Positions 16,769-43,196 of a DNA stretch of 56,850 nt are shown piece after piece. Each line of letters starts with the position of its first letter. Within the stretch, counting starts at the first letter, position 1. The notes below the pieces were generated by a model. That model saw only the letters and a program-made list of their open reading frames with translations, did not search any database and was not told the DNA's origin. This stretch comes from Burkholderiales bacterium (GTDB lineage Bacteria; Pseudomonadota; Gammaproteobacteria; Burkholderiales; Burkholderiaceae_C): the NCBI GenBank assembly GCA_016192425.1, contig JACPUE010000022.1, positions 1-56,850 on the forward strand, written 5' to 3'. The translations under genes were made by a program, and so were the position numbers.

Positions 16769-16794
16769 GTTTTTCACGTTGCAAGGGGAGCCCC

Positions 16795-18050: not shown

Positions 18051-18096
18051 AACCACGGCTTTCGTCACCCATCTTTTCGACCCACCGGAGATCACC

Positions 18097-27267: not shown

Positions 27268-28533
27268 ATGGCGGGATTCCGCACCTTCCTCAAGTCCGGC
27301 CACGCGCCCACGCTGCTGGCAGCCTTTGTCTACTTTGCCTACAGCTGCGGCGTGTGGGTGTCCAACGGAGCCATGGCGCCGTTCATCAAGGAGTCGCTGG
27401 GGTTGACGCCCTCGCAGGTGGGACTGATGCTGTCGGTACCCATTTTTGCCGGGGCACTCATGCGCTTCCCGCTGGGCGTGCTGGCCCAGTACATCGGGCG
27501 CAAGAACGCCACGCTGGTGGAGATGACCGGCATTGCCGTAGCGCTGATGTACGGCTACTTCATGGTCCAGACCTTCAGCGACCTGCTGGCCATGGGCGTG
27601 CTGCTGGGCGTGGCGGGCGCCAGCTTTGGCGTGGCGCTGTCGCTGGGGTCGGGGTCGTTTCCGGCGCACTACAAGGGCCTGGCCATGGGGCTGGTAGGCG
27701 CGGGCAACGTGGGCACCTCGGTGGCCGCCATCATGGCCCCCCAGCTGGCGCAATGGTGGGGCTGGAAGACGGTGTACGGCATTGCCGCCCTGGGGCTGGT
27801 CGTGCCCATCGTGGTCATGGTGGCCCTGGCGCGCGAACCCGAAGACGTGGACAAGCACGCCGCCTTCAGCGACCACATCGCCTGCCTGTTCGAAAAGGAC
27901 GGCTGGGCCTTCAGCGCCATCTACGCCATCACCTTCGGCGGCTTCATCGGACTGACCACTTTCTTGCCCACCTACTACTACGACCAGTTCGGCGTGAGCA
28001 AGGTGCAGGCCGGGCAGTTGACCATGCTGGCCGCCTTCATGGGCGCAGCGCTGCGTATCTTCGGCGGCTGGATCTCCGACCGCTGGGGCGGCATCAACAC
28101 CCTGACCGCCGTGCTGGTGGCCGTAGGCCTGAGCCTGCTGGCCTGCGGCTTCACGCAGTCGTCGCTGGTGCTGACCACGCTGCTCATGCTGCTGTGCTTT
28201 GCGGCGCTGGGCGCGGGCAACGGCGCGCTGTTCCAGCTCGTACCCCTGCGCTGGCCGCTGTCCACCGCCGTGGCAGGCTCGATGATCGGTGAGATCGGCG
28301 CCCTGGGCGGCGGCCTGGTGCCCAATGCCATGGGCTTGTCCAAGCAGTACCTGGGCACCTACCTGTGGGGCTTCGCCCTGCTCGCCACCCTGTCCCTGGC
28401 CGTACTGGCCATGATGCGCTGGATGCAACTCCGCTGGACCCGCACCTGGGCAGAAAAAGGCGGCCGGGCCCGCGCAGCGGGATCGGTGGCGGCGCAGCCG
28501 ACAGGAGCGGAAGCGACCCCGACTTTTCGATAA
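27268..28533 (+). CDS. narK: Nitrate/nitrite MFS transporter NarK/NasA type
   Basis: 421-residue major facilitator with twelve predicted membrane helices, NNP family. Signatures are FVYFAYSCGVWVSNGAMAPF, the loop 2-3 motif GVLAQYIGRKNATL and GAGNVGTSVAAIMAP, the nitrate signature region. A second half-motif is RIFGGWISDRWGG. It begins 40 bp after nasA with CGGAG before the ATG. The final 25 residues (GGRARAAGSVAAQPTGAEATP) come from the first unit of a 78-bp tandem repeat, whose TAA stop ends the protein; the ancestral C-terminus was probably shorter. Confidence 0.93.
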   Translation: MAGFRTFLKSGHAPTLLAAFVYFAYSCGVWVSNGAMAPFIKESLGLTPSQVGLMLSVPIFAGALMRFPLGVLAQYIGRKNATLVEMTGIAVALMYGYFMVQTFSDLLAMGVLLGVAGASFGVALSLGSGSFPAHYKGLAMGLVGAGNVGTSVAAIMAPQLAQWWGWKTVYGIAALGLVVPIVVMVALAREPEDVDKHAAFSDHIACLFEKDGWAFSAIYAITFGGFIGLTTFLPTYYYDQFGVSKVQAGQLTMLAAFMGAALRIFGGWISDRWGGINTLTAVLVAVGLSLLACGFTQSSLVLTTLLMLLCFAALGAGNGALFQLVPLRWPLSTAVAGSMIGEIGALGGGLVPNAMGLSKQYLGTYLWGFALLATLSLAVLAMMRWMQLRWTRTWAEKGGRARAAGSVAAQPTGAEATPTFR

Positions 28534-28655: not shown

Positions 28656-28731
28656 GCCACAAGCTGCAGCAGCCCCGCGTTTGTGACCACTCCGCAACGA
28701 GGTCGCCACCGCCCATGAAGATCCGCGTCAC

Positions 28732-28751
28732 TTCCTGATGCGTTCCTGATG
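28732..28751 (+). promoter_or_regulatory. 11-bp direct repeats before the sensor kinase gene
   Basis: TTCCTGATG occurs at 28732-28740 and 28743-28751, one helical turn apart, the layout of OmpR/PhoB-family binding sites. TAGTGT at about 28761-28766 could be the -10. Matching repeats precede kup (31028-31046). Confidence 0.6.
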
Positions 28752-28790
28752 CCGCATCTGGTAGTGTTGCCCGATGAAAGGCAACTCCCA

Positions 28791-30323
28791 GTGATCGCAG
28801 ACCCGCAGCGCCTCGCGGCCTTGGGCCTCTGGCCCTGGCTATTGGCATGGCTTGCGCTGGTGCTGCTTGACGGCACGCTGGACGTCGGCAGTCTGGCGCA
28901 ACTGCTGGTGATGGCGGCCGCATTCTGCGCTCTGTGGTGGCCATGGTGGGCTGCGCTGGGGATCAGCGCCCTGTCGGTGCTTCTGTTCAACTACGCCTTC
29001 GTTCCACCGCGCGGAACGTTCTCCGTGGCCTTGCACCAGCATGTTCTGCTGCTGTTTTCCACCTTGGCACTCAGTGCGCTGGTGGCGCTTTTGATGCAAC
29101 GGCTGCGCAGTTTGGCCCACAAGGCCCACTGGCTTGCCAACTGTTCTGAGCGCCAGCGGTTGTTGGCGGGCGGCCTGCGGGAAACCGAGCATGTGCCAAA
29201 GATGCAAGCCCAACTGGCGCAAGCCCTGGCAGACTTTGGAACTGGCGAGGTGGTAGTGCTGGCGGCCGAAGTGGAAGATGCCGCCGATCCCCCCGCCGCA
29301 GAGCCAGGGTGCTGGTGGGGCATTCCGACGGAGGACGAGACCAGCGGATTGCGCCTGTGCATGCACCAAGGGCGCAGCCTGGGCCAAGGCACCGGGCGGC
29401 ATGACAACCTGTGGGCGGTGTATTGGCCCCTGCGTGCCCGTGCGCATGTAATGGGTGCGGCCTTGCTGCGCCTGCGCGAAGGCCAGGCACTGGGCAGTGC
29501 CCAGCAAGACCATATCCAGGCGCTTTGCGACGAGGTTGGCGCAGCGCTGGAGCGCCTGTGGACGCATCACCTGGCGCAGCGCAGCAGCCAGCAGTCGCAG
29601 GTGCATGCGCTGCGCAATACCTTGCTGGCCTCCATTGCACACGACCACCGCACACCGCTGGCATCCATCACCAACGCTGCAGAACTGCTGCGCGACCAGG
29701 CCCAGCTATTGGGCCCGGCGCGTTGCCAACAACTGGCCCAGACCATCGTGGACGAATCCGCACAACTGAGCCGCATCACCGACCAGTCCTTGCAATTGGC
29801 ACGCCTGGACGCCCCTGCGCTGGCCGTGCCCATGGACTGGGAATCCGTGGAAGAACTGGTGGCCAGCGCCATGCAGCGCTATCGCCAGCGCCCCGGTGCC
29901 ACGCGCGTGCGCATGCGCCTTCCAAACACCTTGCCCCTGGTGCGCTGCAATGCCGTGCTGGTGGTTCAGTTGCTGGAAAACCTGCTCGACAACGCTGCAC
30001 GGTATGGCAGCCATCCAGACGCGCCCACTGAAGTGCGGGTATGGGTGGCGCACAGCGCCCTGTGGCTTCAGGTATGTGACCGCGGGCCAGGGCTGGATGG
30101 GCGGGTGCAGGCGCATTGGTTTGCCGGTGCAGTGCCTGTCTCGCAGCGCCCGCCCAGCCTTGGCAGCGGTGTGGGACTGGCGCTGTGCCACGCCATTGCG
30201 CGGGTTCATGGCGCGCAGCTGCGCTACCGGCAGCGCCGCGGCGGCGGTGCCTGCTTTGCACTGGGGTTGCCTCTGTCTGAAGCGCCTGCGCCACCCAAGG
30301 AGGAAATGGGAGACCTTTCATGA
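28791..30323 (+). CDS. KdpD-like sensor histidine kinase, short form
   Basis: About 510 residues. Four closely packed membrane helices near the N-terminus (DUF4118, as in KdpD: LLFNYAFVPPRGTFSV) are followed by a GAF-like region, a HisKA domain with SIAHDHRTPLASITNAAELL, and a HATPase domain with NLLDNAARYG, DRGPGLDG and GSGVGLALC. It lacks the N-terminal KdpD cytoplasmic domain (Walker and USP parts). The usual HDLRTPL is HDHRTPL. The GTG at 28791, with AAAGG upstream, is preferred because the ATG at 28749 lies inside the direct-repeat operator; that start would add 14 residues. Overlaps its response regulator by ATGA. The signal is plausibly potassium or turgor, given kup downstream. Confidence 0.88.
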   Translation: MIADPQRLAALGLWPWLLAWLALVLLDGTLDVGSLAQLLVMAAAFCALWWPWWAALGISALSVLLFNYAFVPPRGTFSVALHQHVLLLFSTLALSALVALLMQRLRSLAHKAHWLANCSERQRLLAGGLRETEHVPKMQAQLAQALADFGTGEVVVLAAEVEDAADPPAAEPGCWWGIPTEDETSGLRLCMHQGRSLGQGTGRHDNLWAVYWPLRARAHVMGAALLRLREGQALGSAQQDHIQALCDEVGAALERLWTHHLAQRSSQQSQVHALRNTLLASIAHDHRTPLASITNAAELLRDQAQLLGPARCQQLAQTIVDESAQLSRITDQSLQLARLDAPALAVPMDWESVEELVASAMQRYRQRPGATRVRMRLPNTLPLVRCNAVLVVQLLENLLDNAARYGSHPDAPTEVRVWVAHSALWLQVCDRGPGLDGRVQAHWFAGAVPVSQRPPSLGSGVGLALCHAIARVHGAQLRYRQRRGGGACFALGLPLSEAPAPPKEEMGDLS

Positions 30324-31024
30324 GAAGCCCCACCATCGTGTTGGTAGAGGACGATACGCAACTGCGCTCCACGATCAAGGAAGCCCTTCAGGTGGAGGGC
30401 TACCATGTCCATGCCTGCGCCAGCGTTGCCGATGCGCGCGCACTGCTTGTGCACAGCGGCGCCAAGGTGGACGCAGTGCTGCTTGATCTGGGCCTGCCTG
30501 ACGGTGACGGTGCCGAACTGCTGCCCGTGGTTCGTACGCACAGCAGCGCAGCGCTGCTGGTTCTGTCTGCACGCGACGCCGAGCCGCACAAGATTTCCCT
30601 GCTGGATGCAGGTGCAGATGACTACCTGGTCAAGCCATTCAGCCTGCGCGAACTGATGGCACGCATGCGCGTGGCGCTGCGCCACCAGGGCACCAGCGTG
30701 CGGCCTGCCGTGCGCCAGTACCGCCACGGCACCTTGGATGTGGACCTGGAGGCGCGGCGCGTGCTGCGCGACGGAGCGCCGGTGCACCTGACCCCGCATG
30801 AATATGCGCTTCTGGCGCGCCTGGTACGCTGTGCTGGCCAGGTAGTGACGCACCGCCAACTGCTGGCGGACGTTTGGGGCGCAGACTGCGTGGAGCACAC
30901 CCACTACCTGCGGCTCTACATGGGGCAACTGCGCGCCAAACTCGAAGCACAGCCAGCACAACCCCAACTGTTGCTGACCGAGCCGGGCGTGGGCTACCGT
31001 TTGGCCGAGCCCACAGAGCTGTAG
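30320..31024 (+). CDS. KdpE-like response regulator (OmpR family)
   Basis: 234 residues: receiver domain with acidic pocket VEDD, phosphoacceptor Asp in [12 protein letters not shown], Lys in [12 protein letters not shown], then a winged-helix DNA-binding domain containing [30 protein letters not shown] and GVGYRLAEP. It matches KdpE most closely by the ethos of these motifs and by its KdpD-like partner. Translation is coupled to the kinase gene (ATGA). No kdpFABC genes occur here; the downstream kup carries a matching candidate binding site. Confidence 0.9.
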
Positions 31025-31027
31025 GCC

Positions 31028-31046
31028 TCCTTATGCGATCCTGATG
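31028..31046 (+). promoter_or_regulatory. 11-bp direct repeats before kup
   Basis: TCCTTATG (31028-31035) and TCCTGATG (31039-31046) are 11 bp apart. The arrangement, and the 8-bp distance from GATGCC to a hexamer ending in T, parallel the site before the kinase gene (28732-28751). This suggests the KdpE-like regulator controls kup. Confidence 0.55.
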
Positions 31047-31091
31047 CCTGCCGGCGCATGCTCCAGGCCAGGATCACTTCTGGAGCCTTGC

Positions 31092-33014
31092 ATGGCAAGC
31101 AACACACCCACGGGCGAGGCAGATGCCTCGCCCACATCGGCCCATACCACCCGGCAAGGGCTGGCAGGCCTGACCCTGGCCGCCATCGGCGTGGTCTATG
31201 GCGACATCGGCACAAGCCCGCTGTACACCGTCAAAGAGGTTTTCTCTCCCCACACCGGATTGAGCGTAAGCCCGGACAACGTGCTGGGGGCCGTATCCAC
31301 CATCGTCTGGGCGCTGATGCTGGTGGTCACGCTCAAATACGTCATCCTGATCCTGCGCGCCGACAACAATGGCGAGGGTGGCGGCCTGGCGCTCACGGCA
31401 CTGGCCGCCAAGGCCGTGGGCAGCACGCGGCCACGCCTGCGCCAGGCCCTTACCCTGCTGGGCGTGTTCGGGGCCACACTGTTCTATGGCGACAGCCTCA
31501 TCACACCGGCCATCTCGGTCATGGGTGCGATGGAGGGGCTCGAATACGTCACCCCGGCCGCCCACGACTGGGTCGTGCCCTGCACCCTGGTGGTGCTGTT
31601 GGGGCTGTTTGTGGTGCAACGGTTCGGCACCGCACTGGTGGGGCGATTTTTCGGCCCCATCATCGTGCTGTGGTTTGTGGTGCTGTCGGTGGTGGGCCTG
31701 TGGCAGATTGCCCAGCAACCCGCCGTCGTGGCCGCACTCAACCCGCTGCATGCCTGGGAATTCCTGTCACAGCGCGGCTGGAAGCTGCTGGCTGTGATTG
31801 GTGCCGTAGTGCTGGCCCTGACCGGGGCCGAGGCGCTGTATGCCGACATGGGCCACTTCGGCAAGCGCCCGATCCGCCTGGCATGGGGCGGGCTGGTACT
31901 GCCCGCACTGGCCATCAACTACATGGGCCAGGGGGCACTGCTGCTGGGCGATGCCTCCACCGTGGAAAACCCCTTCTACCGCATGTTCCCTGCCGCACTG
32001 GCGCTACCGGTGCTGCTGCTGGCCACGCTGGCAGCCATCATTGCATCGCAGGCCGTGATTTCAGGCGCCTACTCCATGACCAAGCAGGCCATTTTGCTGG
32101 GCTTTCTGCCGCGCATGACGGTGCGCTACACCTCGGCGCGCGAGATGGGCCAGATTTACCTGCCCGCCGTGAACTGGGCCCTGCTGGCCGGTGTGGTGGC
32201 CATGGTGTTGTTCTTCCGGTCTTCGTCGGCACTGGCCACGGCGTACGGCATCGCAGTCACTGTGACCATGCTCATCACCACGCTTCTGACCTTTTTCGTG
32301 GTGCGCGATGCCTGGAAACTGCCACGATGGCTGGCATGGGGGGCTACGGCCTTCTTTGTGGCGCTGGATACGCTGCTCGTCTGCGGCTGTGCGGTCAAGT
32401 TCTTCGACGGGGGCTGGATCCCCTTGGCCCTGGGGCTGGTGCTGTTTACCTTCATGAGCACCTGGGCACGCGGGCGCAGCCTGCTGGTGCAGGCCATCCG
32501 CAAAGACGGCGTGTCCTTGGTGGACTTCATTGAAAGCCTTGACCCCCGCGAACTCAAGCGTGCCAGCCGTACTGCGGTCTACGCCGTGGCCGACACCAGC
32601 ACCGTACCCCAGGCACTGTTGCACAACCTCAAGCACAACGAGGTATTGCACGAGCGCAATGTGATCCTCACCGTGATCTTTCACGACGTACCCTGGATTC
32701 CCATGCACCAACGTGTGCAGGTGGAATCCCTGGGAAAGAACTTCTGGCGCGTACAACTGCATTTCGGGTTCATGAACACACCCGATGTTCCGCGGGCCCT
32801 GGAATTGACCCGCTCCTTTGGCTTGAACATTCCTGTCTTCGAGACAACGTTTTTCCTCAGCCGCGAAACCGTGGTGCCGACCCCTGGCTCGGGCATGGCG
32901 CGCTGGCGGGAACACCTGTTTGCCACCATGAGCCGCAATGCCGGAGGCGTGGTCGAGTTCTTCCGCCTTCCTGACAACACCGTGGTGGAACTCGGCACGC
33001 GGGTACAGATATGA
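31092..33014 (+). CDS. kup: Kup low-affinity potassium uptake protein
   Basis: 640-residue inner-membrane K+/H+ symporter of the KUP/HAK/KT family. It begins with a polar segment and [20 protein letters not shown], the family signature, followed by about twelve helices ([37 protein letters not shown]) and a C-terminal cytoplasmic domain of about 180 residues. The ATG at 31092 has TGGAG upstream; a longer frame opens from 31044 without support. It lies 67 bp after the KdpE-like gene with its own candidate promoter. Confidence 0.95.
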
Positions 33015-33095
33015 AAAAGTCACACCACTGACACAGCCTGTTTTTACAGTTCGTTTCTTTGCTTTTGCTCCCAGAAATCTCGATTTGGAGGAACT

Positions 33096-34505
33096 ATGAA
33101 GAAACGGTTGATCGCCCTGGCCATTGCCAGCCTGGCACTGACAGCATGCGGAGGATCGGGCGACAGTGTTCCCAAAAACGTCATCTTCTTTCTGGGTGAC
33201 GGCATGGGCATTCCCACGCTGACTGCAGCACGTATCTACAAAGTGGGAGAAGCAGGCGACCTCACCATCGACACACTGCCCGAAACCGCATTTGTACGCA
33301 CCTATTCGAACAACGCTCAGGTGACAGACAGCGCCCCTTCGATGGCCGCGTACATGACAGGTGTGAAGATGAACAACGAGGTCATCTCCATGACCCCGGA
33401 AACCAATGCCTTCGACACCGCAACGGGCAAGGACTACCTCAGCGGCGCGGACTCCACCTGCCCCGCCAGTGGCAACGGGAAATCCGTGGCCACGTTGCTG
33501 GAGATTGCCAAGGGACTGGGCATGGGCACGGGTGCCGTCACCACCACGCGCATTACCCATGCCACACCAGCCACTACCTACGCCCACGTCTGCCACCGCG
33601 ACGCTGAAAACACCATTGCGGCCCAAGTGGTGCCGGGGGGTACGGGCTACAACAGTGCGCTGGGCGACGGCGTGGACGTGCTGCTCGGCGGAGGCCGCCA
33701 GTTCTTCCTGCCCAGCAGCAATGGCGGCAAGCGCACGGACGGGCGCGACCTGACCGCTGAACTCAAGGCCAAAGGCTACACCTACGTGCAAAGCCGCACC
33801 GAGCTGGATGCAGCCGCGGCAGCAACCACCAAGAAGCTGGTGGGCCTGTTCACCAGCAGCCACATGAGCTATGACCTGGACCGCGACGCCAGCAAGGAAC
33901 CCAGCCTGGCGGAGATGACGGACAAAGCCATCGAAGTGCTCAGCAAGAACAGCAAAGGCTTTTTCCTGATGGTGGAAGGCGGCCGCATTGACCACGCACT
34001 GCACGAAACCACCGCGCGCAAGGCGCTGCAAGACACCGTGGCATTTGACGATGCCATCAAACTTGCGCTCGACAAGATGCAGGCCAAAGACCCTGGCCTG
34101 AAAAACACGCTGATCGTCGTCACCGCCGACCACGACCACACCCTGGTGCTCAATGGGTACGCCGCACGCACCGGCCCCACCACCACCAGCAACCCTGGCG
34201 TACTGGGTCTGCTGCGCAGCTTCGTGGACGGTTCCCTGGCTTCCGACAGCAGCGGCAATCCGTTCACCATCATTGGTTTTGGCAATGGCGAAAACCGGCC
34301 CGCAACCCGCTCGGCCCTGACCGATGCCCAGGTGGCAGACAAGGCCTACCACCAGGAAGCCGCCATTCCCGTGGCCGCCGGCAGCGAAACCCACGGTGGC
34401 ACCGACGTTTTCCTGGGTGCTGTGGGCAAGGGTGCCGATCTGTTCACCGGCACCATCACCAACACGGAAGTCTTCGGCCTCATTCGCAAGGCCACCGGCC
34501 TGTAA
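33096..34505 (+). CDS. Alkaline phosphatase family lipoprotein
   Basis: 469 residues of the PhoA-type metal-dependent phosphomonoesterase family. The signal ends LALTAC, so this copy is a lipoprotein. Metal and catalytic motifs are NVIFFLGDGMG (Asp), VTDSAPSMAAYMTG (nucleophile Ser), MVEGGRIDHALH and VVTADHDHT; a distal ETHGGTD supplies the last metal His. It begins with a GGAGG ribosome site. It is 43% or more similar by eye to the next gene, and the two are tandem paralogs. Confidence 0.92.
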   Translation: MKKRLIALAIASLALTACGGSGDSVPKNVIFFLGDGMGIPTLTAARIYKVGEAGDLTIDTLPETAFVRTYSNNAQVTDSAPSMAAYMTGVKMNNEVISMTPETNAFDTATGKDYLSGADSTCPASGNGKSVATLLEIAKGLGMGTGAVTTTRITHATPATTYAHVCHRDAENTIAAQVVPGGTGYNSALGDGVDVLLGGGRQFFLPSSNGGKRTDGRDLTAELKAKGYTYVQSRTELDAAAAATTKKLVGLFTSSHMSYDLDRDASKEPSLAEMTDKAIEVLSKNSKGFFLMVEGGRIDHALHETTARKALQDTVAFDDAIKLALDKMQAKDPGLKNTLIVVTADHDHTLVLNGYAARTGPTTTSNPGVLGLLRSFVDGSLASDSSGNPFTIIGFGNGENRPATRSALTDAQVADKAYHQEAAIPVAAGSETHGGTDVFLGAVGKGADLFTGTITNTEVFGLIRKATGL

Positions 34506-34522
34506 TCGAAAGCCTCTTGACC

Positions 34523-35920
34523 ATGAAAAAACTGCACCGCATTACCGTCGCCGCATTGGCTCTTGCCGCCAGCAGCACCAGCTTCGCAGCAGGCGAAGCC
34601 ACCAACGTCATCTTCTTCCTCGGTGATGGCATGGGCCCCACCACCGTGACCGCCAGCCGCATCTACAAATACGGTGAAACAGGCCAGCTGGCCATGGAAA
34701 GCCTGCGCCGCACTGCACGCATCAAAACCTATTCGAACGACGCGCAGACCACCGACAGCGCGCCGTCCATGGCCGCCTACATGACCGGCGTGAAGATGAA
34801 CAACGAAGTCCTCTCCATGAGCCAGGACACGAAGGCCTACAACGGCACCAAGCCCTACTACAGCGGTGCAGACTCCACCTGCCCTGCAACAGGCAACGGC
34901 ACTTCGGTACCGACCCTGCTGGAGCTTGCCAAAGCGGCGGGCAAGTCTGTCGGTGCGGTGACAACAACACGCATCACGCACGCCACACCGGCGGCCACCT
35001 ATGCCCACATTTGCCACCGCGACGGCGAGAACAACATTGCCGCGCAGGCAGTGCCGGGCTCGGGGCAATTCAACACTGCCTTGGGCAGCGGGGTGGATGT
35101 GCTGCTCGGTGGCGGCGCAAAGTTCTTCCTGCCCAACACCGTGACTGGCGGCAAGCGCACCGATGGCCAGGACCTGACCGCGCTGCTGCAAAAAGCCGGA
35201 TACACCTACGTCACCACCGGCGCGGCCTTGCAGGCCGTGGATGCGGGAACCACCAAGCTGGTCGGACTGTTCAACCCCGATCACCTGAACTATGAACTTG
35301 ACCGCGTGAAGAAAAAGCTGGACGAGCCCAGCCTGGCCGACATGACGGAAAAGGCCATCAAGGTGCTGCAAAAGAACAGCAAGGGCTACTTCCTGATGGT
35401 CGAGGGCGGCCGCATCGACCATGCGCTGCACGGCACCAACGCCAAGCGCGCACTGGAAGACACCATTGCCTTTGACGAAGCCATCCGCCGCGCCTTGTCG
35501 CTGGTGGACACGAAGAACACGCTGATCGTGGTCACCGCCGACCATGACCACACAATGACCTTCAACGGCTATTCGCACCGCGGCAATCCGATTCTGGGCA
35601 AGTCCACAGACATCAAGTCCACTGCCGTGCAAGGCAAACCCGTGCTGGCGACTGCCGCCGATGGCAAGCCCTACACCACCCTGGTGTTTGGCAACGGCGG
35701 CGGCCCACGCAAGGCAAGCCGCGACGACCTCACCGCTGTGGACACGGCCGATGACGACTACCTGCAGGAAGTGGCCGTGTCGCTGGGCAGCCCCGGCTCG
35801 GAAACCCATGGCGGCGGCGACGTGATGCTCTTTGCCACAGGCGCTGGCAGCAGCGCCTTCAAGGGCACGATGGTCAACACCAAGGTGTTTGGGCTGGTCA
35901 AGGCCGCCTCGGGGCTGTAA
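34523..35920 (+). CDS. Alkaline phosphatase, secreted paralog
   Basis: 465 residues with an ordinary Sec signal (VAALALAASSTSFA) in place of the lipobox of its upstream twin, so it should be periplasmic or secreted. The same catalytic set is present: NVIFFLGDGMGP, TDSAPSMAAYMTG, EGGRIDHALHG, VVTADHDHTM and ETHGGGD. It starts 17 bp after its paralog and is probably co-transcribed. An upstream in-frame TTG at 34517 would add only two codons. Confidence 0.92.
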   Translation: MKKLHRITVAALALAASSTSFAAGEATNVIFFLGDGMGPTTVTASRIYKYGETGQLAMESLRRTARIKTYSNDAQTTDSAPSMAAYMTGVKMNNEVLSMSQDTKAYNGTKPYYSGADSTCPATGNGTSVPTLLELAKAAGKSVGAVTTTRITHATPAATYAHICHRDGENNIAAQAVPGSGQFNTALGSGVDVLLGGGAKFFLPNTVTGGKRTDGQDLTALLQKAGYTYVTTGAALQAVDAGTTKLVGLFNPDHLNYELDRVKKKLDEPSLADMTEKAIKVLQKNSKGYFLMVEGGRIDHALHGTNAKRALEDTIAFDEAIRRALSLVDTKNTLIVVTADHDHTMTFNGYSHRGNPILGKSTDIKSTAVQGKPVLATAADGKPYTTLVFGNGGGPRKASRDDLTAVDTADDDYLQEVAVSLGSPGSETHGGGDVMLFATGAGSSAFKGTMVNTKVFGLVKAASGL

Positions 35921-35944
35921 GCACCCTCGTCATCCAATGACCGC

Positions 35945-35974
35945 AATCGCCCGGCATCCCTGTCGGGCGATTTT
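35945..35974 (+). terminator. Terminator after the phosphatase pair
   Basis: AATCGCCCG/CGGGCGATT stem with a 10-nt loop followed by TTTT. It lies 24 bp after the second phosphatase and before the small secreted protein gene. Confidence 0.7.
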
Positions 35975-35990
35975 CTGTATTTGAGCCCGT

Positions 35991-36686
35991 ATGAAATCCC
36001 TACCCATGAAACGCGTATTTCCTGCAGCGCTGCTGGCCCTTTGGCTGGCTGCACCCGCCCAGGCCCAGGAGCCCGTACCTCCCTTGGCCCTGAAGATCGA
36101 GCATGCCGTCACCACACTGTCTGCCGATGGTGTGACGCGTGAAGTTCGCTACGCCGAGCACCTGGTGCGCCAAGGCGGCCAAGTCTGGCTGGCGCGCGTG
36201 CTGCCGCCGCACGCCCACGAATCGCAAGAGCATGCCGGCGCCAGCAAAGAACACAAGCACATGGACGTTGCCGCAGCGGCCCGGTGGATACAACGGGCCA
36301 GCGACGGCAGCTTGCGCGTGCGCCTGGTCAATGCACACGACCAGCTCGTGGTGGATGTGCCCGCGCCCGATTGGGGCAACATCGGTTTCGACGGCCAGTG
36401 GCTGGCTGCCCAGCACCTGCTCGACCCCGCCCAAGTGCAGCGCATGAAGCCGCTGGACCGCACCGCGCCTGCAGGCACCCGGTGGTACCAAGGCGGCACA
36501 GCCACCATGAAGGTGCTGGTGCTATGGGATGCCCAAGGCCAGTTTCCACGCCGGGTGGAATCCGCCGACACCCATGGCACCAGCCACAGCGTGACCACTG
36601 CCATGCGCGAACCGCTGCCCAAAGCCTTGCCCTGGGGGCAGTTGGAGAAGTACCAGCAGAAGGAGTATTCCGACCTCCTCGACTAA
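35991..36686 (+). CDS. Secreted protein of unknown function
   Basis: 231 residues. Sec signal (LLALWLAAPAQAQ) then a mixed alpha/beta domain without obvious catalytic motif; RYAEHLVRQGGQVWLARVLP and GTRWYQGG recur in uncharacterised exported proteins near phosphatases. An HEHAGASKEHKHMDV stretch is rich in His and could bind metal. ATG at 35991 or 36006 are both possible. It follows the phosphatase pair and may share its function, but nothing proves that. Confidence 0.7.
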   Translation: MKSLPMKRVFPAALLALWLAAPAQAQEPVPPLALKIEHAVTTLSADGVTREVRYAEHLVRQGGQVWLARVLPPHAHESQEHAGASKEHKHMDVAAAARWIQRASDGSLRVRLVNAHDQLVVDVPAPDWGNIGFDGQWLAAQHLLDPAQVQRMKPLDRTAPAGTRWYQGGTATMKVLVLWDAQGQFPRRVESADTHGTSHSVTTAMREPLPKALPWGQLEKYQQKEYSDLLD

Positions 36687-36687
36687 G

Positions 36688-36800
36688 AACTTATCCGTAA
36701 ATTATTTGATGCCACGCAGCGCTCTTTTCGGGATGGGATGCAAGGCGCAGTGCGCAGCCCATAGCCCCGCTATGGGCAAGCATCGCAACGCCGCAGACCG
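36688..36800. repeat. Probable dispersed intergenic repeat
   Basis: Starts AACTTATCCGTAAATTATTT, continues with GGGATGGGATGCAAGGCGCA, a CCCATAG-CCCCG-CTATGGG hairpin (about 36759-36777) and GCATCGCAACGCCGCAG. This composition resembles a repeat seen between genes in Comamonadaceae. It abuts the 3' end of the kinase-phosphatase gene. Confidence 0.4.
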
Positions 36801-36815
36801 CGCAGGCGCTACGCC

Positions 36816-38543
36816 CTATGTCGGCAGGAACAGCAGCCACACCACCAGCAGCACATTGAGCAGCAGCGACACGGCGAGCCCGATCTTCCAGCCCGCATCC
36901 ACCGGCTGCGGCCTGGCGGCTGGCGCCGTGGCGGGCCTGTGGGAGCCGCGCTCCAGGGCCTGGCGGAAGTCTTCTGCGCTGGCGTAGCGCTCGTGCGCAT
37001 CGCGGGCAATGGCGCGGGCGAGCACGGCGTCGAGCCAGTGCGGGACGCTGGGGTTGTGGTGCGATGCCGGGCGCGGTTCGCGGGCGTAGCGGCCCACCTG
37101 GTAGGGCAGCACCTCGCCGTAGGGCAGCGTGCCGGTGAGCATCTGGTACAGCGTGACGCCTAGCGCAAACAGGTCGCTGCGCGCATCGGGGGGCTGTGGG
37201 GCGCCCAGGGTGGCGCCACGGGACAGGCCCCATTGCTCGGGGTTGATGTAGCTGGGGGTACCGGCGTGTGCGGGCCCATCGCCCTCGCGGTCGTGGGCGC
37301 TCAGTGCCACGCCCAGGTCGATGAGCCGCAGCACCTGGTCGTTGCCCCAGTGCAGGTTGCCGGGCTTGATGTCGCGGTGCACCACCTCCTGGCGGTGCAG
37401 TTGCGCGAGCGCGCTGAGGGCCTGCAGTCCCCATTGCACGCACTGCTCCACGCTGACGGGCTGGCCCCGGTCCAGCCATTGCTGCAGCGTCTGGCCCCGG
37501 TGCCAGTCGTACAGGACGTACAGGTGCGCCGGTGGCAGCCCGTCAGGGCGCTGCAGGTGCGCGCGCACCAGGTGCCGCGCTGCGGGACTGCTTTGCATGT
37601 GCTGGGCCAGCCAGGCTTCGTGCACCAGCATGGCGCGCTGCGGGGTGTCGTGTGCACGTGCGGGGTGCAGGGTTTTGAGGGCGTAGGTCTGCTCTGCCGC
37701 ACGCACTTGGTAGATGCGGTGGATGCCGTTGTCGGCCACCAGGGCACTGACCTTGAGGCCCTCGAATTCGTCCCCTGGACGCAGCGGCGGGGGCAGCGGC
37801 AGGTGTGCGCAGCGCTCCCAGGCCTGGCGCAGGGACTGCGTCTGCAGGCCTTGCACGCGCAGGACCAGGGCGCTGGCATTGTCCTGGCCGCCTGCCTGCA
37901 GCGCAGCCGCCACCAGGGCGTCGGCCAGTTCCTGCGCCGTGCCCTGGGCCTGGCACAGCATGCGCCACTGGCGTGCGTGCAACACGCCGTGCACGCCGTC
38001 GGTGGTGAGGATCAGCACATCGCCTACCTGCAGCGCGCCCTGGGCGTAGTCCACTGCCAGGCGTTCCTCCAGGCCCACCGCGCGCACCAGGCCGTGGGCA
38101 AAGTCGCGCTGGGGCAGCACATGGTCCTGGGTGAGCTGCTCCCACTGGCCCTGGCGCAGCAGGTGGGCGCGGGTGTCACCCACATGGGCCAGGGTGTAGT
38201 GGTGGCCGCGCAGCACCACGGCGGTGATTGCCGTGAGCCCGACCGCAGGCGCGCGCCGCTGGTTGGTACCCGCCAGCCAGGCGTTGTGCGCAGCGAGGAT
38301 GCGCTCCAGCGCCACCGTGGCATCCCAGTGCAGCGGGGTGCTGTGGTAGTCGCTCAGCAGGGTGTGCACGGTGGTCTGCGCGGCTTCGCGCCCGTGCCCG
38401 CCCTGGCTCACACCGTCGGCCACGGCAGCAATGGCACCCCATTCGACCTCGTGTGCACCAGGCAGGCGCACGGCGCAGAAGTCTTCGTTCACCGGTTTGG
38501 GGCCGGGCTGGCTGCAGTAGCCAATGTCGAGCTGAAAAGTCAT
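36816..38543 (-). CDS. PP2C phosphatase-protein kinase fusion 1
   Basis: About 575 residues. The N-terminal PP2C domain (to ~235) has metal-site motifs NEDFC, VADGVSQGGHG, HVGDTRAH, TTDGVHGVL and GGQDNAS. A eukaryotic-type kinase domain (~255-515) has the ATP lysine in YALKTLHP, catalytic VVHRDIKPGNLHW, a DLG variant of DFG (RLIDLGVAL) and GTPSYINPEQWG; its glycine loop is degenerate. A C-terminal helix (LLLNVLLVVWLLFL) anchors it in the membrane. The ATG at 38543 or at 38549 could start it. It is divergent from nirC behind its own sigma-54-like element, and has a paralog on the other side of nirC. Confidence 0.92.
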   Translation of the reverse strand: MTFQLDIGYCSQPGPKPVNEDFCAVRLPGAHEVEWGAIAAVADGVSQGGHGREAAQTTVHTLLSDYHSTPLHWDATVALERILAAHNAWLAGTNQRRAPAVGLTAITAVVLRGHHYTLAHVGDTRAHLLRQGQWEQLTQDHVLPQRDFAHGLVRAVGLEERLAVDYAQGALQVGDVLILTTDGVHGVLHARQWRMLCQAQGTAQELADALVAAALQAGGQDNASALVLRVQGLQTQSLRQAWERCAHLPLPPPLRPGDEFEGLKVSALVADNGIHRIYQVRAAEQTYALKTLHPARAHDTPQRAMLVHEAWLAQHMQSSPAARHLVRAHLQRPDGLPPAHLYVLYDWHRGQTLQQWLDRGQPVSVEQCVQWGLQALSALAQLHRQEVVHRDIKPGNLHWGNDQVLRLIDLGVALSAHDREGDGPAHAGTPSYINPEQWGLSRGATLGAPQPPDARSDLFALGVTLYQMLTGTLPYGEVLPYQVGRYAREPRPASHHNPSVPHWLDAVLARAIARDAHERYASAEDFRQALERGSHRPATAPAARPQPVDAGWKIGLAVSLLLNVLLVVWLLFLPT

Positions 38544-38603
38544 GTGCATAGGGCCGCGTGGTGCTCCATTGTGGTCTGTGCACCGTGCTGTGCAGGGCGG
38601 GCA

Positions 38604-38619
38604 TGCAAGTTTGGTGCCT
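38604..38619 (-). promoter_or_regulatory. Sigma-54-like promoter of kinase-phosphatase 1
   Basis: Minus-strand AGGCAC-CAAAC-TTGCA has GG and GC at the correct 12-bp offset; only the first base departs from consensus. The start site would be near 38593, about 45-50 nt before the start codons. Confidence 0.55.
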
Positions 38620-38639
38620 TTGCGTCATCGCTGCGCGCT

Positions 38640-38655
38640 TGGCACGTTGTTTGCT
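38640..38655 (+). promoter_or_regulatory. Sigma-54 promoter of nirC
   Basis: TGGCACGTTGTTTGCT matches the -24/-12 consensus with GG at 38641-38642 and GC at 38653-38654. The start site would be near 38666, giving a ~105-nt leader. A GCAC-N6-GTGC dyad (about 38579-38592) lies upstream, one base short of the NtrC spacing. Confidence 0.75.
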
Positions 38656-38771
38656 GAACAGGGCATAAGCCGTGGACACGCAGCACCGCTGCATCCACGC
38701 ACCGACGCTGCTGCGCCTTGTGCTGCAGCAGCGCCCCGAAGACCTGCATCGCAACCTGGAGCAAGCACACC

Positions 38772-39584
38772 ATGGCCTACCTCGTCCCTGCTGAATTCGT
38801 CACCAAAATGGTGGACGCTGGCGAATCCAAGATCTACATGTCCACGCGCGATACGCTGATACGCGGCTTCATGGCGGGCGCCATCCTGTCGCTGGCGGCG
38901 GTGTTTGCCGTCACCGCCAGCGTGATGACGGGCTCCCCCCTCGTGGGCGCCATGTTGTTCCCGGTGGGCTTTTGCATGCTGTACCTGCTGGGGTTTGACC
39001 TGCTGACAGGGGTGTTCATGCTCACCCCGCTGGCCTGGCTGGACAAGCGCCCTGGCGTCACCCTGGGCGGCATCCTGCGCAACTGGGGGCTGGTGTTTGT
39101 GGGCAACTTCCTGGGAGCGCTGACGGTGGCCTTCATGATGGCGTTCATCTTCACCTATGGATTTTCGGTGCCGCCCAACGAGGTCGGGGAGAAAATCGGC
39201 CACATCGGCGAGGCGCGCACGCTCGGGTATGCCAAGTACGGCCTCATGGGCTGGCTCACCATCTTCATCCGCGGCATGCTGTGCAACTGGATGGTGTCCA
39301 CGGGCGTGGTCGGCGCCATGATTTCCACCACCGTCAGCGGCAAGGTCATCGCCATGTGGATGCCCGTCATGCTGTTCTTTGCCATGACGTTCGAACACTC
39401 GGTGGTCAACATGTTCCTGTTCCCCTCGGGCCTGATGATGGGCGGCAACTTCTCCATCATGGATTACTTCATCTGGAACGAGATCCCCGTGGTGCTGGGC
39501 AACCTGGTGGGCGGCCTGGCCTTCACCGGCCTCACGCTGTACGCCACCCACGTGCGCACCGCCCCCAAGCGCAAGCTGGTGTGA
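38772..39584 (+). CDS. nirC: Formate/nitrite channel NirC
   Basis: 270-residue inner-membrane FNT family channel that moves nitrite or formate. It has six helices with the family patterns GFMAGAILSLAAVFAV, YLLGFDLLTGVFMLTP, WGLVFVGNFLGAL, GMLCNWMVSTGV and FEHSVVNMFLFPSGLM. The central pore loop glycines and NFS sequence are kept. The start at 38772 follows CTGGAGCAAGCACACC. It is followed after 11 bp by the second kinase-phosphatase gene, so both are in one operon. Confidence 0.94.
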   Translation: MAYLVPAEFVTKMVDAGESKIYMSTRDTLIRGFMAGAILSLAAVFAVTASVMTGSPLVGAMLFPVGFCMLYLLGFDLLTGVFMLTPLAWLDKRPGVTLGGILRNWGLVFVGNFLGALTVAFMMAFIFTYGFSVPPNEVGEKIGHIGEARTLGYAKYGLMGWLTIFIRGMLCNWMVSTGVVGAMISTTVSGKVIAMWMPVMLFFAMTFEHSVVNMFLFPSGLMMGGNFSIMDYFIWNEIPVVLGNLVGGLAFTGLTLYATHVRTAPKRKLV

Positions 39585-39595
39585 CCCCAAGCGCC

Positions 39596-41362
39596 ATGCC
39601 CTTGACCACGCCAGCCCTGCTGCAAGTGCGTGTCGGCCAGCATTCCAATGCGGGGCGCAAAAGCGTCAACCAGGACTTCCACGGCGCATGCCTGCCCGAC
39701 GGGCTGCAGCGCCAGAGCAAGGGCGTGGCCGTGGCGCTGGCCGACGGCATCGGCAGCAGCGATGTCAGCGACGTGGCCGCTGCCGCCGCCGTGCATGCGC
39801 TGCTGGTGGACTACTACTGCACCTCCGACGCCTGGAGCGTCAAGCGCTCGGCCCAGTGCGTGATCGCAGCCACCAACTCGTGGCTGCATGCGCAAACCCG
39901 GCGCAGCCCCTACCGCTTCGACCAGGACCGGGGCTACGTCTGCACGCTCAGCGCACTCATCATCAAAGGGGCCACGGCGCACCTGTTCCATGTGGGCGAC
40001 ACACGCATCCACCGCGTGCAGGGCCGCACGCTGGAGCAGCTCACCGAAGACCACCGCGTCTGCATGGCCGACGGGCGCAGCTACCTGGGGCGCGCGCTGG
40101 GCGTGCAGCCCCAGACCGAGATCGACTACCGCAGCCTGCCCGTGGACGCGGGCGACGTGTTTGTGCTGAGCACCGACGGCGTGCACGAGCATGTATCGCC
40201 CGGCGCCATGATGCAGGCCATTGCCGCCCATGCGCACGACCTGGATGCTGCTGCGCGCAGCATCGTGCAGCAGGCCCTGGCGCAGGGCAGCCCGGACAAC
40301 TGCACGCTGCAGATCGTCGCCATCGACCGCGTGCCCCAGGCCGACAGCGGCGAAGTGCTGCACCAGCAGGCCCAGCAGCGTGCCCAACTGCGCCTGCCGC
40401 CCGTGCTGTCGGCGCGCCAGCAGTTCGAGGGCTACGAGATCGTGCGCGAACTGCACGCCAGCCACCGCAGCCATGTGTACCTGGCCACTGCACTGGCCAG
40501 CGGCCGCCAGGTGGTGCTCAAGACCCCTTCCATCGACCGGCGCGAAGACCATGCCTACCTCGACCGCTTTGTGCTGGAGGAATGGATCGCACGGCGCATC
40601 GACAGCCCCCATGTGCTGCGCCCAGCCGATGGCGACCCGCCCCGCCCGCGCGAACACCTGTTTGTGGCCATGGAGTATGTGCATGGACAGACCCTGGCGC
40701 AGTGGATGACCGACCACCCCCGCCCCAGCCTGGCGCAGGTGCGCGACATCGTGGGCCAGGTGGCGCGCGGGCTGCAGGCCTTTCACCGGCGCGAGATGCT
40801 GCACCTGGACCTGCGGCCCGAGAACATACTGATCGACGCCCAGGGCACGGTCAAGATCATCGACTTTGGCGCCGTGCAGGTGGCCGGGCTGGCCGAGGCC
40901 CAGCCCGCCAGCGACACCCCGCCCGTGCTGGGCAACCTGCACTACACCGCCCCCGAATGCCTGCTGGGCGAGGCCCCCGCGCCCAGCGCCGACCTGTACG
41001 CCCTGGGCGTGCTCACCTATCAGATGCTGACCGGCCGCCTGCCCTACGGCAGCCAGGGCGCCGCCGTGCGCACACGCGCCGACCTGCGCCGCCTGCAGTA
41101 CCGCAGCGCGCTGGACGAACACCACCCCATTCCCGCATGGATGGACGCCGTGCTCGAACGCGCCGTGCACCCACAGCCGCACAAGCGCCAGCAGGCGCTC
41201 ACCGAATTCGTGCACGACCTGCATCACCCCGGTGCAGCCTACCTGCGCCAGAACCGCCAGCCCCTCACGGAGCGCAATCCGCTGCTGTTCTGGCGCAGCC
41301 TCTCGTTGCTGCTGGGGCTGGCTGTGGTGGTGCTCTTGGGCATGATTAACAGCCTGCGCTGA
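39596..41362 (+). CDS. PP2C phosphatase-protein kinase fusion 2
   Basis: 588 residues, paralog of the gene at 36816. The PP2C domain shows VNQDFHG, ALADGIGSSD, FHVGDTRIHR, LSTDGVHEHV and GSPDNCT. The kinase domain has VVLKTPSI, an unusual LHLDLRPENILID in place of HRDxKxxN, an intact IIDFGAVQVAG, and LHYTAPECLLG; the glycine loop is degenerate. It ends with a hydrophobic helix LLLGLAVVVLLGMI. The membrane anchor and placement next to nirC suggest control of a membrane or nitrogen-metabolism target, which is inference. Starts 11 bp after nirC. Confidence 0.92.
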   Translation: MPLTTPALLQVRVGQHSNAGRKSVNQDFHGACLPDGLQRQSKGVAVALADGIGSSDVSDVAAAAAVHALLVDYYCTSDAWSVKRSAQCVIAATNSWLHAQTRRSPYRFDQDRGYVCTLSALIIKGATAHLFHVGDTRIHRVQGRTLEQLTEDHRVCMADGRSYLGRALGVQPQTEIDYRSLPVDAGDVFVLSTDGVHEHVSPGAMMQAIAAHAHDLDAAARSIVQQALAQGSPDNCTLQIVAIDRVPQADSGEVLHQQAQQRAQLRLPPVLSARQQFEGYEIVRELHASHRSHVYLATALASGRQVVLKTPSIDRREDHAYLDRFVLEEWIARRIDSPHVLRPADGDPPRPREHLFVAMEYVHGQTLAQWMTDHPRPSLAQVRDIVGQVARGLQAFHRREMLHLDLRPENILIDAQGTVKIIDFGAVQVAGLAEAQPASDTPPVLGNLHYTAPECLLGEAPAPSADLYALGVLTYQMLTGRLPYGSQGAAVRTRADLRRLQYRSALDEHHPIPAWMDAVLERAVHPQPHKRQQALTEFVHDLHHPGAAYLRQNRQPLTERNPLLFWRSLSLLLGLAVVVLLGMINSLR

Positions 41363-41449: not shown

Positions 41450-42418
41450 ATGGCCATCAGCCACTACCTCAAAGACATAGGCCGCGGCAAGGACGGCACA
41501 CGCTCCCTGAACCGCGCCCAGGCCACCGACCTGCTGGGCCTGGTTCTGGACGGCATGGCCAGCGACCTGGAGGTGGGCGCCTTCTGCATTGCCATGCGCA
41601 TCAAGGGTGAAACGCCCGAAGAGATGGCGGGCTTTCTGGACGCCATCCACCAGCGCCTGCCGCGCCTGGCCGTTCCCGGGCGCCCGCTGGTGGTGCTGCC
41701 CAGCTACAACGGCGCCCGCAAGCTGCCGCTGCTGACCCCGCTGCTGGCCCTGCTGCTGGCGCGCCAGGGCTTGAGCGTGCTGGTGCACGGCAGCGCCACC
41801 GAGGAGCGCCGCGCCTGCAGCGCCGACGTGCTGGCCCACCTGGGCGTGGTCCCGCAACAGGTCTTGCAGACCCCTGCCCCGGGCAGCGTAGCCTTTGCGC
41901 CCACGGCCCTGCTGCTGCCCGGCCTGGAGCGCCTGCTGCAGGTGCGCCGCGTGCTGGGCCTGCGCAACAGCGCGCACAGCCTGGTCAAGCTGCTGGACCC
42001 TCTGGCCCCCGCGGGCGCGCACAGCATCGTGGTGGGCAGCTACACCCACCCGGAATACGCGCAATCGATGGCCGCCACCTGCGCGCTGACGGGTGCCTGC
42101 GCCCTGCTGCTGCGCGGCACCGAAGGCGAGCCCGTGGCCGACCCGCGCCGCACGCCGCAGATGGACGCCTACGTGCACGGACAGCACCAGCGCGTGCAGG
42201 ACGCGCAAGCCGGCCCGCTGGCCGCCCTGCCCCAGTTGCCCACGGCCATTGACGCGGCCAGCACCGCCGCCTGGATCCGCAGCGTGCTGGACGGCGCGCA
42301 GCCCGTGCCTGCCTCCATTGCGCTGCAGGTGGAACACATCTTGCGTATTGCAGGGCAGATGTCCACGGAGCCCGCGCATGATGCCCATCGCCTACCCACA
42401 CCACCCGCACCCCACTGA
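41450..42418 (+). CDS. ybiB: YbiB-family protein (anthranilate phosphoribosyltransferase fold)
   Basis: 322 residues. The sequence HYLKDIGRGKDGTRSLNRAQ and GAFCIAMRIKGETPEEMAGF is that of YbiB, a TrpD2-like protein that binds nucleic acid and lacks the phosphoribosyl-pyrophosphate site. Its cellular role is unclear. It starts 87 bp after the second kinase-phosphatase gene, and its 3' end overlaps cobA by about 41 bp, so the genes are tightly linked. In betaproteobacteria this pair often sits with nitrate assimilation genes. Confidence 0.88.
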   Translation: MAISHYLKDIGRGKDGTRSLNRAQATDLLGLVLDGMASDLEVGAFCIAMRIKGETPEEMAGFLDAIHQRLPRLAVPGRPLVVLPSYNGARKLPLLTPLLALLLARQGLSVLVHGSATEERRACSADVLAHLGVVPQQVLQTPAPGSVAFAPTALLLPGLERLLQVRRVLGLRNSAHSLVKLLDPLAPAGAHSIVVGSYTHPEYAQSMAATCALTGACALLLRGTEGEPVADPRRTPQMDAYVHGQHQRVQDAQAGPLAALPQLPTAIDAASTAAWIRSVLDGAQPVPASIALQVEHILRIAGQMSTEPAHDAHRLPTPPAPH

Positions 42419-43196
42419 CACCCACGGCCGCTGCACCCTGGTGGGCGCGGGGCCGGGCGACCCCGAACTGCTCACCCTCAAGGCCGTGCGCGCCATCGAA
42501 TCGGCCACCGTGCTGCTGGTGGACGACCTGGTGAGCGAAGCCATCGTGGCCCTGGCGCCGCGCAGCGCGCGCATCGTGCGCGTGGGCAAGCGCGGTGGCT
42601 GCAAGAGCACGCCGCAGGCCTTCATTGAAAAGCTCATGCTCATGGCGGTGCACGAGGGCGAACATGTGGTGCGCCTCAAAGGGGGCGACCCGTTCATCTT
42701 TGGGCGCGGCGGCGAAGAGGCCGAGCACCTGCGCGCTGCGGGCGTAGCCGTGGAGGCCATCAACGGCATCACCGCCGGGTTGGCCGGGCCCACGGCACTG
42801 GGCGTGCCGCTCACGCACCGCGACCACGCGCAGGGCGTGCTGTTCATCACCGGCCACGCCCGCCCCGGAGCCCCCAGCCCCGACTGGGCCCTGCTCGCCC
42901 GCACCGCGCAACAGGCACGGCTCACACTGGTCATCTACATGGGCATGAGCGGCGCACGCCAGATCCAGGACGGTCTGCTGCAGGGCCTGCCCAGCCACAC
43001 GCCCGTGGCCGTGATCCAGCACGCCAGCCTACCCCGGCAACGCCACGCCACGGCCGCGCTGGAGCAGTTGGCTGACACCATTGCCCAACACGGCCTGGGC
43101 AGCCCGAGTGTCATCGTGGTGGGCGAGGTGGTGCGCGGGCTGGCGGCGCTGCACGGCCAGAGCGCGCCGATCCTGATGCGGCACCAAGCCGCCTGA
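42378..43196 (+). CDS. cobA: Uroporphyrinogen-III C-methyltransferase
   Basis: 272 residues. It methylates uroporphyrinogen III twice using S-adenosylmethionine to form precorrin-2, the first step to siroheme. Motifs are LVGAGPGDPELLTLKAVRAI, VRLKGGDPFIFGRGGEEAEHL, INGITAGLAGPTALGVPLTH and VIYMGMSGARQIQ. It is the stand-alone CobA/SUMT form without the CysG oxidase-chelatase domains, so another enzyme must finish siroheme. The start at 42378 follows GGAG. NirB needs this cofactor, which explains the location. Confidence 0.93.
   Translation: MMPIAYPHHPHPTDTHGRCTLVGAGPGDPELLTLKAVRAIESATVLLVDDLVSEAIVALAPRSARIVRVGKRGGCKSTPQAFIEKLMLMAVHEGEHVVRLKGGDPFIFGRGGEEAEHLRAAGVAVEAINGITAGLAGPTALGVPLTHRDHAQGVLFITGHARPGAPSPDWALLARTAQQARLTLVIYMGMSGARQIQDGLLQGLPSHTPVAVIQHASLPRQRHATAALEQLADTIAQHGLGSPSVIVVGEVVRGLAALHGQSAPILMRHQAA

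Follow-up and report, generated by a model that had tools for sequence, protein, structure and literature searches.

Introduction

Genes annotated as fusions of a PP2C phosphatase with a Ser/Thr kinase occur in nitrate islands of Pseudomonas, where one of them is called ppkB. Here we describe two genes of this type, F1 and F2, which flank a channel gene of the FNT family in a Burkholderiales bacterium (GenBank assembly GCA_016192425.1). The stretch that we analyzed, hereafter called the window, is the whole contig JACPUE010000022.1 of 56,850 bases from a genome of 3.67 Mb. A comparison of 115 fusions indicates that the conserved unit is a fusion gene together with the gene of a transporter.

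Several other systems share parts of this arrangement. PknB/Stk1 and PstP/Stp1 have the same domain folds as F1 and F2, as judged by a structural search with the F2 model (see below). They are, however, encoded by two separate genes and have PASTA sensor domains, while F1 and F2 are single chains, show no PASTA match and are linked to transporters. The cyanobacterial phosphatase PphA resembles F2 in being a PP2C connected with nitrogen control; it acts on PII, and to our knowledge it is neither fused to a kinase nor encoded in a transporter operon. In plants, CIPK kinases act on the nitrate transporter NRT1.1 and are opposed by a PP2C. This is similar to the role that we propose for the fusions, in a eukaryotic system that is made up of separate proteins and has a calcium input. 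The site phosphorylated by CIPKs in NRT1.1 is given as T101 in the abstract of PMC7348705, and according to the abstract of PMC6603209 PII acts on the uptake systems for nitrate, ammonium and urea.

A close likeness is to PpkB of Pseudomonas, which shares with F1 and F2 both the PP2C-kinase type of annotation and the position in a nitrate island. The relevant passages of the genome paper on Pseudomonas sp. UW4 (PMC3596284, 2013) give the gene order nasST-nasA-ppkB-nasDEC-cobA, with ppkB immediately 3' of nasA, and mention beside ppkB that A. thaliana and H. polymorpha have kinases which phosphorylate a nitrate transporter. With this remark the idea was already hinted at for the NarK branch of the family. 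The gene PA1782, a putative counterpart of the fusions under the name 'bifunctional protein-serine/threonine kinase/phosphatase', is listed among at least three Ser/Thr kinases in a passage of PMC8560001 and appears as ppkB in PMC6954232, where an expression table also lists nasA and nirB. Excerpts of PMC7214821 report a strong decrease of nasA and nirB in mutants of ntrB and ntrC; PA1782 is not named in these excerpts. The passages of PMC5524735, PMC7261876 and PMC7343986 that matched our search terms contain nothing on the fusion. The family is widespread, nitrogen-linked and known by annotation; no functional study of it was recognised in the open literature, a search that left most subscription papers outside its coverage, and within the same coverage we found no report of the FNT-linked clade, the permease-linked members or the agreement between fusion clade and transporter type described below.

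Domain structure of the fusion proteins

The open reading frames of F1, the channel and F2, which had been noted in an earlier reading of the window from its letters alone (the sequence-only reading), are present at positions 36816..38549 on the minus strand, 38772..39584 on the plus strand and 39596..41362 on the plus strand, respectively. F1 (577 amino acids) contains a PP2C domain (approximately residues 20-231), a Ser/Thr kinase domain (approximately 265-541) and a C-terminal transmembrane helix (552-573). F2 (588 amino acids) has the same layout, with the PP2C domain at approximately 17-241, the kinase at approximately 272-544 and the helix at 562-587. Against the Pfam model PP2C_2 (cut-off 24) F1 and F2 scored 44.8 and 63.0 bits, and against Pkinase (cut-off 31.7) they scored 89.7 and 123.9 bits; both therefore carry an N-terminal PP2C and a C-terminal Ser/Thr kinase in a single chain, as PpkB does by its annotation. 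A hydrophobic C-terminal helix was detected by hydropathy in all 115 fusions, F1 and F2 included. AlphaFold2 (AF2) models, built on alignments of 16 rows, finish in one long hydrophobic helix in both proteins; the mean predicted local distance difference test (pLDDT) and the predicted template modelling score (pTM) were 86.4 and 0.64 for F1 and 89.0 and 0.83 for F2. The architecture that the sequence-only reading had assigned to the two proteins is confirmed by these data, as is their position as paralogues on either side of the channel gene.

A Foldseek search with the F2 model had PknB and PstP chains as top matches; the kinase part resembled PknB and the phosphatase part PstP, PppA and tPphA, the last being a likeness to the PphA system. 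A PP2C-kinase fusion chain was not found among the 50 matches listed of at least 2000. The NCBIfam model for PknB/Stk1 PASTA kinases (NF033483, cut-off 450) was matched by F1 and F2 with only 123.2 and 161.6 bits, over the kinase part alone, and the Stp1/IreP PP2C model (NF033484, cut-off 230) with only 98.6 and 95.6 bits.

The motifs quoted in the sequence-only reading, HRDIKPGN and DLG in F1 and HLDLRPEN and DFG in F2, are indeed present, but their interpretation as complementary defects of two kinases did not hold. The deviations are clade-wide: the catalytic-loop Lys is replaced by Arg in 31/31 members of the FNT-linked clade of F2 and kept in 28/28 members of the F1 clade, while DLG occurs in 28/28 members of the F1 clade and the same position in the FNT clade is F in 23, L in 7 and Y in 1. 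They also spare the catalytic residues, since the Lys, the Glu, HxD, the Asn and the Asp of DFG are retained in both F1 and F2. The idea of complementary pseudokinases was rejected on these grounds. The kinase Lys and the HxD His are invariant throughout the set of 115 fusions; the Glu, the catalytic Asp, the Asn and the DFG Asp are each lost in one fusion, always among 20 outlying members. The metal-binding Asp positions of the PP2C domain are kept in F1 and F2. With their catalytic residues intact, both proteins are predicted to have kinase and phosphatase activity.

The channel (270 amino acids) had been called nirC. It belongs to the FNT superfamily, with 219.7 bits against PF01226 (Form_Nir_trans; gathering score 34.6). 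The name nirC is a mere label, because the protein stays below the NCBIfam cut-offs for NirC (PRK11562; 46.9 vs 293 bits), FocA (TIGR04060; 121.9 vs 290.1 bits) and the fnt subfamily (145.2 vs 232.3 bits). By its sequence we can therefore call it an FNT protein.

Linkage of the fusions to nitrogen transporters

Relatives of the fusions were collected in two surveys. The family survey, with F2 as query, covered 100 genomes including the window's own; outside this genome it gave 15 F2-type genes (49-61% identity) and 27 others (about 30% identity; one is incomplete and another is split in two), and 40 other family loci were retrieved. In the class survey 121 of 369 genomes had a relative, which may be a lower bound because at most three candidates were scored per genome; 60 of 139 class loci were retrieved for neighbourhood analysis.

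A NarK or FNT gene is located within about 2.6 kb of 96 of the 115 fusions, F1 of the window being counted via FNT. A further 12 have nir, nas or nrt-type genes within the retrieved stretch, one of them (L145) only an nrtC-like match of the ATP-binding cassette (ABC) type. As a control, the surroundings of the six other kinases of the window's own genome were inspected, up to 1.5 kb away, and contain neither narK nor FNT in any of the six. The linkage of the fusions to nitrogen genes is thus far above chance; this claim covers linkage and not the bracketing of a channel gene by two fusions. Most narK neighbours were recognised by a custom model only, and those outside Burkholderiales often scored just 80-116 bits. 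When five neighbours of the major facilitator superfamily (MFS) besides that of the window were scanned with NCBIfam, the NarK model was the best in 5/5 and above its cut-off in 3/5; several further narK neighbours were recovered in a TIGR00886 search. The tie of a membrane-anchored kinase/phosphatase to nitrate and nitrite assimilation, as suggested by the sequence-only reading, is borne out by this linkage and by the island genes of the window. Fusions free of any nitrogen linkage, which that reading had named as a finding that would speak against it, were seen only among a few outlying members.

The arrangement within the loci is also recurrent. In the family sample an FNT gene adjoins 14 of the 15 F2-type genes, the fifteenth being cut by a contig end, and the order nirB-nirD-FNT-fusion is frequent; the second family group is mainly divergent from nirB and convergent with narK. 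Over the entire FNT-linked clade (clade A) the FNT gene adjoins the fusion in 29/31 loci, in 28 of them on the same strand. For transporter genes that lie upstream in tandem on the strand of the fusion, the distance to the first aligned residue of the fusion has a median of 53.5 bp for FNT (n=28) and 57 bp for NarK (n=43). The conserved unit is therefore a fusion plus a transporter, whatever the fold of the transporter, with a median tandem gap of about 55 bp. narK or FNT adjoins the fusion in 13 of the 15 best named loci (the exceptions are L188 and L192), and in P. brenneri and P. fluorescens (L183/L184) the order is nrtA-nasT-narK-fusion-nirB-nirD-nasC-cobA. In 4/4 annotated plasmid records an FNT (3) or NarK (1) gene is directly upstream of a gene annotated with the same name as PA1782.

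The same association is found when the search starts from the channel. A PF01226 scan of 94 genomes gave 15 FNT genes (16 rows, G233 being split in two), and a fusion adjoins 7 of these, the one in the window included. Automatically cut FNT loci with more than 400 bits against a custom FNT model adjoin a fusion in 39/41 cases, again with the window counted, while none of the 14 loci with 248 bits or less has a fusion within 1.5 kb. Five of 20 further hand-picked FNT loci are linked (L375, L377-L380), and in L370 the fusion lies beyond nasC, some 3 kb from the FNT gene. No fusion adjoins the tandem narK pairs L278, L288 and L289, the last from the window's own genome, which look dissimilatory.

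Could the fusions be house-keeping or defence kinases that sit in these operons without any functional coupling to nitrogen? PADLOC reports kinase-domain matches (PD-T4-6, mad6) for both F1 and F2, and their MADS6 scores are 97.4 and 134.2 against an NCBIfam cut-off of 460. The matches listed (25 of 35 and 25 of 36 families) span the kinase region and the C-terminus only. Together with the linkage to nitrogen transporters of several folds this makes such an explanation extremely unlikely.

Phylogeny of the fusions and transporter type

In a FastTree phylogeny the 31 FNT-linked fusions form one clade and the 28 F1-type fusions (clade B) another, both with a support of 1.0. The FNT clade is nested within type-2 NarK-linked fusions; the common ancestor comprises 67 tips (support 0.654), and these tips minus clade A make up group C in our tabulation of linkage. 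PpkB belongs to a NarK-linked branch, whereas F2 is in the FNT-linked clade and the clade of F1 is usually divergent from nirB. In an IQ-TREE phylogeny of the 115 fusions F2 falls into an FNT-linked group of 29 rows and F1 into a set of 28 rows in which every labelled member is NarK-linked; both have a support of 100 in the Shimodaira-Hasegawa-like approximate likelihood ratio test. This tree comes from a quick search, in which 37 of 112 inner branches have less than 80% support and many rows differ in composition.

The IQ-TREE phylogeny was then compared with the type of the transporter. The 97 tips labelled FNT, NarK or APC-type permease require 2 changes, which is the minimum for three types. 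Shuffled labels required 28.2 changes on average, and 0/200 shuffles were as low as 2; as the shuffles ignore relatedness, they show that the type of partner is conserved and not that many independent events took place. The 18 unlabelled tips are F1 and its sister copy, which touch FNT and yet fall into the NarK-linked set, and 16 fusions without a labelled transporter nearby. Together with the neighbourhood data this makes the genetic coupling between fusion and transporter well supported.

Bracketing of the FNT gene

According to the sequence-only reading the two fusions form a pair of paralogues around nirC, possibly a heteromeric writer/eraser. The sister genome G116 does share with the window an arrangement in which F1 and F2 lie on either side of the channel gene. 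In a survey of 26 genomes of the genus, 15 of them at least 90% complete, F2 was found in nine; F1 accompanies it only in G116 and the window's own genome, and the seven others carry the F2-type gene without F1. F1-type and F2-type genes side by side were found in none of the 15 family-sample genomes with an F2-type gene. A conserved pair bracketing nirC was therefore rejected. F1 and F2, which are only 33% identical, are judging from their sequences old paralogues from strongly supported separate clades with different usual partners. Since the catalytic residues are moreover complete in both, the notion of a heteromeric pair in which complementary degenerate kinases control NirC is disfavoured, and we consider it very unlikely. 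The bracketing of FNT by F1 and F2 is local and incidental.

The sister genome also points to the origin of this arrangement. Its gene order is nirB-nirD-nasC-narK>, <F1, an extra copy of nirD, FNT>, F2>, ybiB>, cobA>, where narK and F1 are convergent and 280 bp apart. In the window, the NarK-family MFS transporter gene (27268..28533, plus strand) was identified with TIGR00886 as the top model (216.3 bits, below the cut-off of 311.7) and by its synteny with the sister locus L099. A blastn comparison of L099 with the window revealed that a block of about 8.1 kb between narK and F1 (28657..36804, plus strand) is missing at this place in G116. The block contains genes for a DUF4118 histidine kinase, a response regulator and a K+ transporter (K_trans), all three confirmed by Pfam, as well as two tandem alkaline phosphatase genes and one unknown gene. 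It is simpler to read this block as an insertion in the window lineage, because narK lies on the 3' side of the fusion in 20/28 clade-B loci. NarK is the predicted ancestral partner of F1, and FNT is the predicted partner of F2. In a further genome, from another family (G186, L385), an FNT-linked fusion faces a second fusion at a distance of about 5 kb. This is possibly an independent cluster; as the start of the second fusion is 113 bp from the contig end, the gene preceding it is not visible.

Proposed function

From the domain content, the intact catalytic residues, the C-terminal helix, the gene linkage and the way in which transporter type follows the fusion tree we infer an activity, topology, substrate, signal and direction of control for the fusions. 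Each fusion may be dedicated to one nitrogen-source transporter and set its activity, F2 that of FNT, directly after which it is encoded, and F1, which is divergent from FNT, that of NarK about 8 kb away; in our judgment this proposal stands an even chance of being correct. The kinase and PP2C domains would reside in the cytosol, tethered at the membrane by the C-terminal helix beside the transporter, and would add phosphate to or remove it from the transporter or a small partner bound to it. In this way the nitrogen or redox state inside the cell could throttle the uptake of nitrate or nitrite, with no need for new transcription. The bracketing of FNT would then have come from two such modules joining in one locus, as the sister genome and the other relatives suggest. 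The unit of fusion and transporter is conserved across folds. A dedicated membrane regulator that would phosphorylate and dephosphorylate its transporter is the simplest account.

A number of observations weigh against this proposal. The clade-B fusion is divergent from nirB in 20/28 loci and not in tandem with its transporter. The position that we take to be the phosphate-binding Arg of PP2C is Lys in F1 and F2; across the F1 clade it is K in 14, R in 12, A in 1 and G in 1. Genome G813 retains a close FNT, and a fusion was not detected there at E 1e-30. Seven of the 115 fusions (L052, L155, L171, L174, L175, L178 and L179) have no recognised nitrate gene; L052 sits at a contig end. Among the scanned neighbours of L155, L174 and L179 there is no nitrogen link: these comprise an EamA transporter with a lyase-like protein, a TrkA-type channel and a phosphofructokinase. 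The channels themselves do not reveal an obvious target either. Ser/Thr residues are not enriched among the FNT columns that discriminate linked from unlinked proteins (2/15; Fisher p=0.69 for conserved columns and 0.57 for tails). T11 and T28, both in the N-terminal tail, are conserved among the linked FNTs and missing from 19 unlinked ones that are more distant; all five close unlinked FNTs, however, keep T28. With this and the lack of significant enrichment, we do not claim T11 and T28 as phosphosites.

Genes for NasT-like, NIT-ANTAR and NirBD proteins also recur in the loci, which means that the substrate could be a regulator or an enzyme. In that case the fusions would act on NasT, NIT-ANTAR/NasR, PilJ-ANTAR, NirBD or PII, and the transporter would be co-regulated cargo. 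The recurrence of NIT-ANTAR, nasT-like or ANTAR-PilJ genes is consistent with this, and so are the orientation of clade B just mentioned and locus L138 (4933-9896), where a P-II gene divergent from the fusion is followed by an ammonium transporter gene (Amt; both by Pfam) and then narK. The transporter is, however, most often the nearest recognised neighbour, and its type is tracked by the fusion clade with the minimum of changes. In addition, FNT-fusion pairs such as those of Azospirillum (L381) and Acinetobacter (L382) have no nir or nas gene listed within 6 kb, in a gene table that is incomplete. We regard a regulator or enzyme as an unlikely target, to be taken seriously nonetheless.

Two side observations concern these loci. 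A gene that joins an ANTAR domain with PilJ-type stretches is present in L055 (6161-7423) and nine other F1-type loci of the family sample, often together with a PAS-GGDEF gene; it is possibly a variant nitrate sensor. The FNT-fusion pair L382, on the Acinetobacter junii plasmid NZ_CP131471 (typed as mobilizable), adjoins cynS (cyanase) and insertion sequences, and the FNT there might carry cyanate.

The linkage data would equally suit fusions that are self-phosphorylating membrane sensors and report the occupancy of the transporter, as in a transceptor; the transporter would then be the input and not the substrate. A chain that holds both kinase and phosphatase may well suit a sensor that resets itself. 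Such a function is quite improbable, as the chain stops at the C-terminal helix in the AF2 models and has no periplasmic or PASTA-like sensor part, and a constant output partner was not found in the neighbourhoods.

Regulation of a dedicated transporter, as proposed above, could extend to other nitrogen sources. Amino-acid permease genes (Pfam) lie within about 2.3 kb of the fusion in L171, L175 and L178, and L171 and L175 also carry ethanolamine ammonia-lyase genes (EutB in L175 by Pfam). This suggests that the permease-linked fusions are the same switch on another nitrogen source. In L188 (3459-7190) the fusion is 0.7 kb from an ammonium transporter gene (Amt, Pfam), and in L192 it is downstream of genes of the glutamine-synthetase and glutamate-synthase type. 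The fusions may thus represent a general bacterial class of operon-encoded, membrane-anchored writer/erasers, one per nitrogen transporter, which would switch unrelated folds (MFS NarK, FNT, an amino-acid/ethanolamine-type permease, perhaps Amt) by reversible phosphorylation and would each keep their own switch in a shared locus. We put this forward tentatively, as a possible but somewhat doubtful generalization.

The nitrate island of the window

The remaining genes around F1, FNT and F2 make up a nitrate-assimilation island. On the plus strand upstream are a nasT-like ANTAR regulator gene (14722..15408; 377 bits with a custom hidden Markov model whose family representative matches Pfam ANTAR), the nitrate ABC transporter genes nrtA, nrtB and nrtC (16767..19862; Pfam NMT1_2, BPD_transp_1 and ABC_tran), nirB for the large subunit of assimilatory nitrite reductase (21510..23957; Pfam NIR_SIR and others), nirD for the small subunit (24043..24426; Pfam Rieske) and nasC for the assimilatory nitrate reductase (24423..27227; Pfam Molybdopterin), which is followed by narK. 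F2 starts 11 bp past the stop codon of FNT. Immediately after F2, also on the plus strand, come ybiB for a glycosyltransferase-like DNA-binding protein (41450..42418; NF006005, 372.4 bits, cut-off 185) and cobA for uroporphyrinogen-III methyltransferase, which serves siroheme for NirB (42381..43196; NF004790, 296 bits, cut-off 198). A promoter and terminator scan of 38400-39700 gave no match.

Significance

The interesting part of these results is the transporter rule, namely that the type of partner tracks the clade of the fusion. If the proposed function is true, the fusions would offer a direct and testable route to fast control of nitrogen uptake in proteobacteria, in many families including Pseudomonas. 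They would also be a case in which gene order allows one to predict what a bacterial Ser/Thr kinase has as its substrate, and with kinase and phosphatase in a single chain they would provide a compact model of a self-contained phospho-switch.

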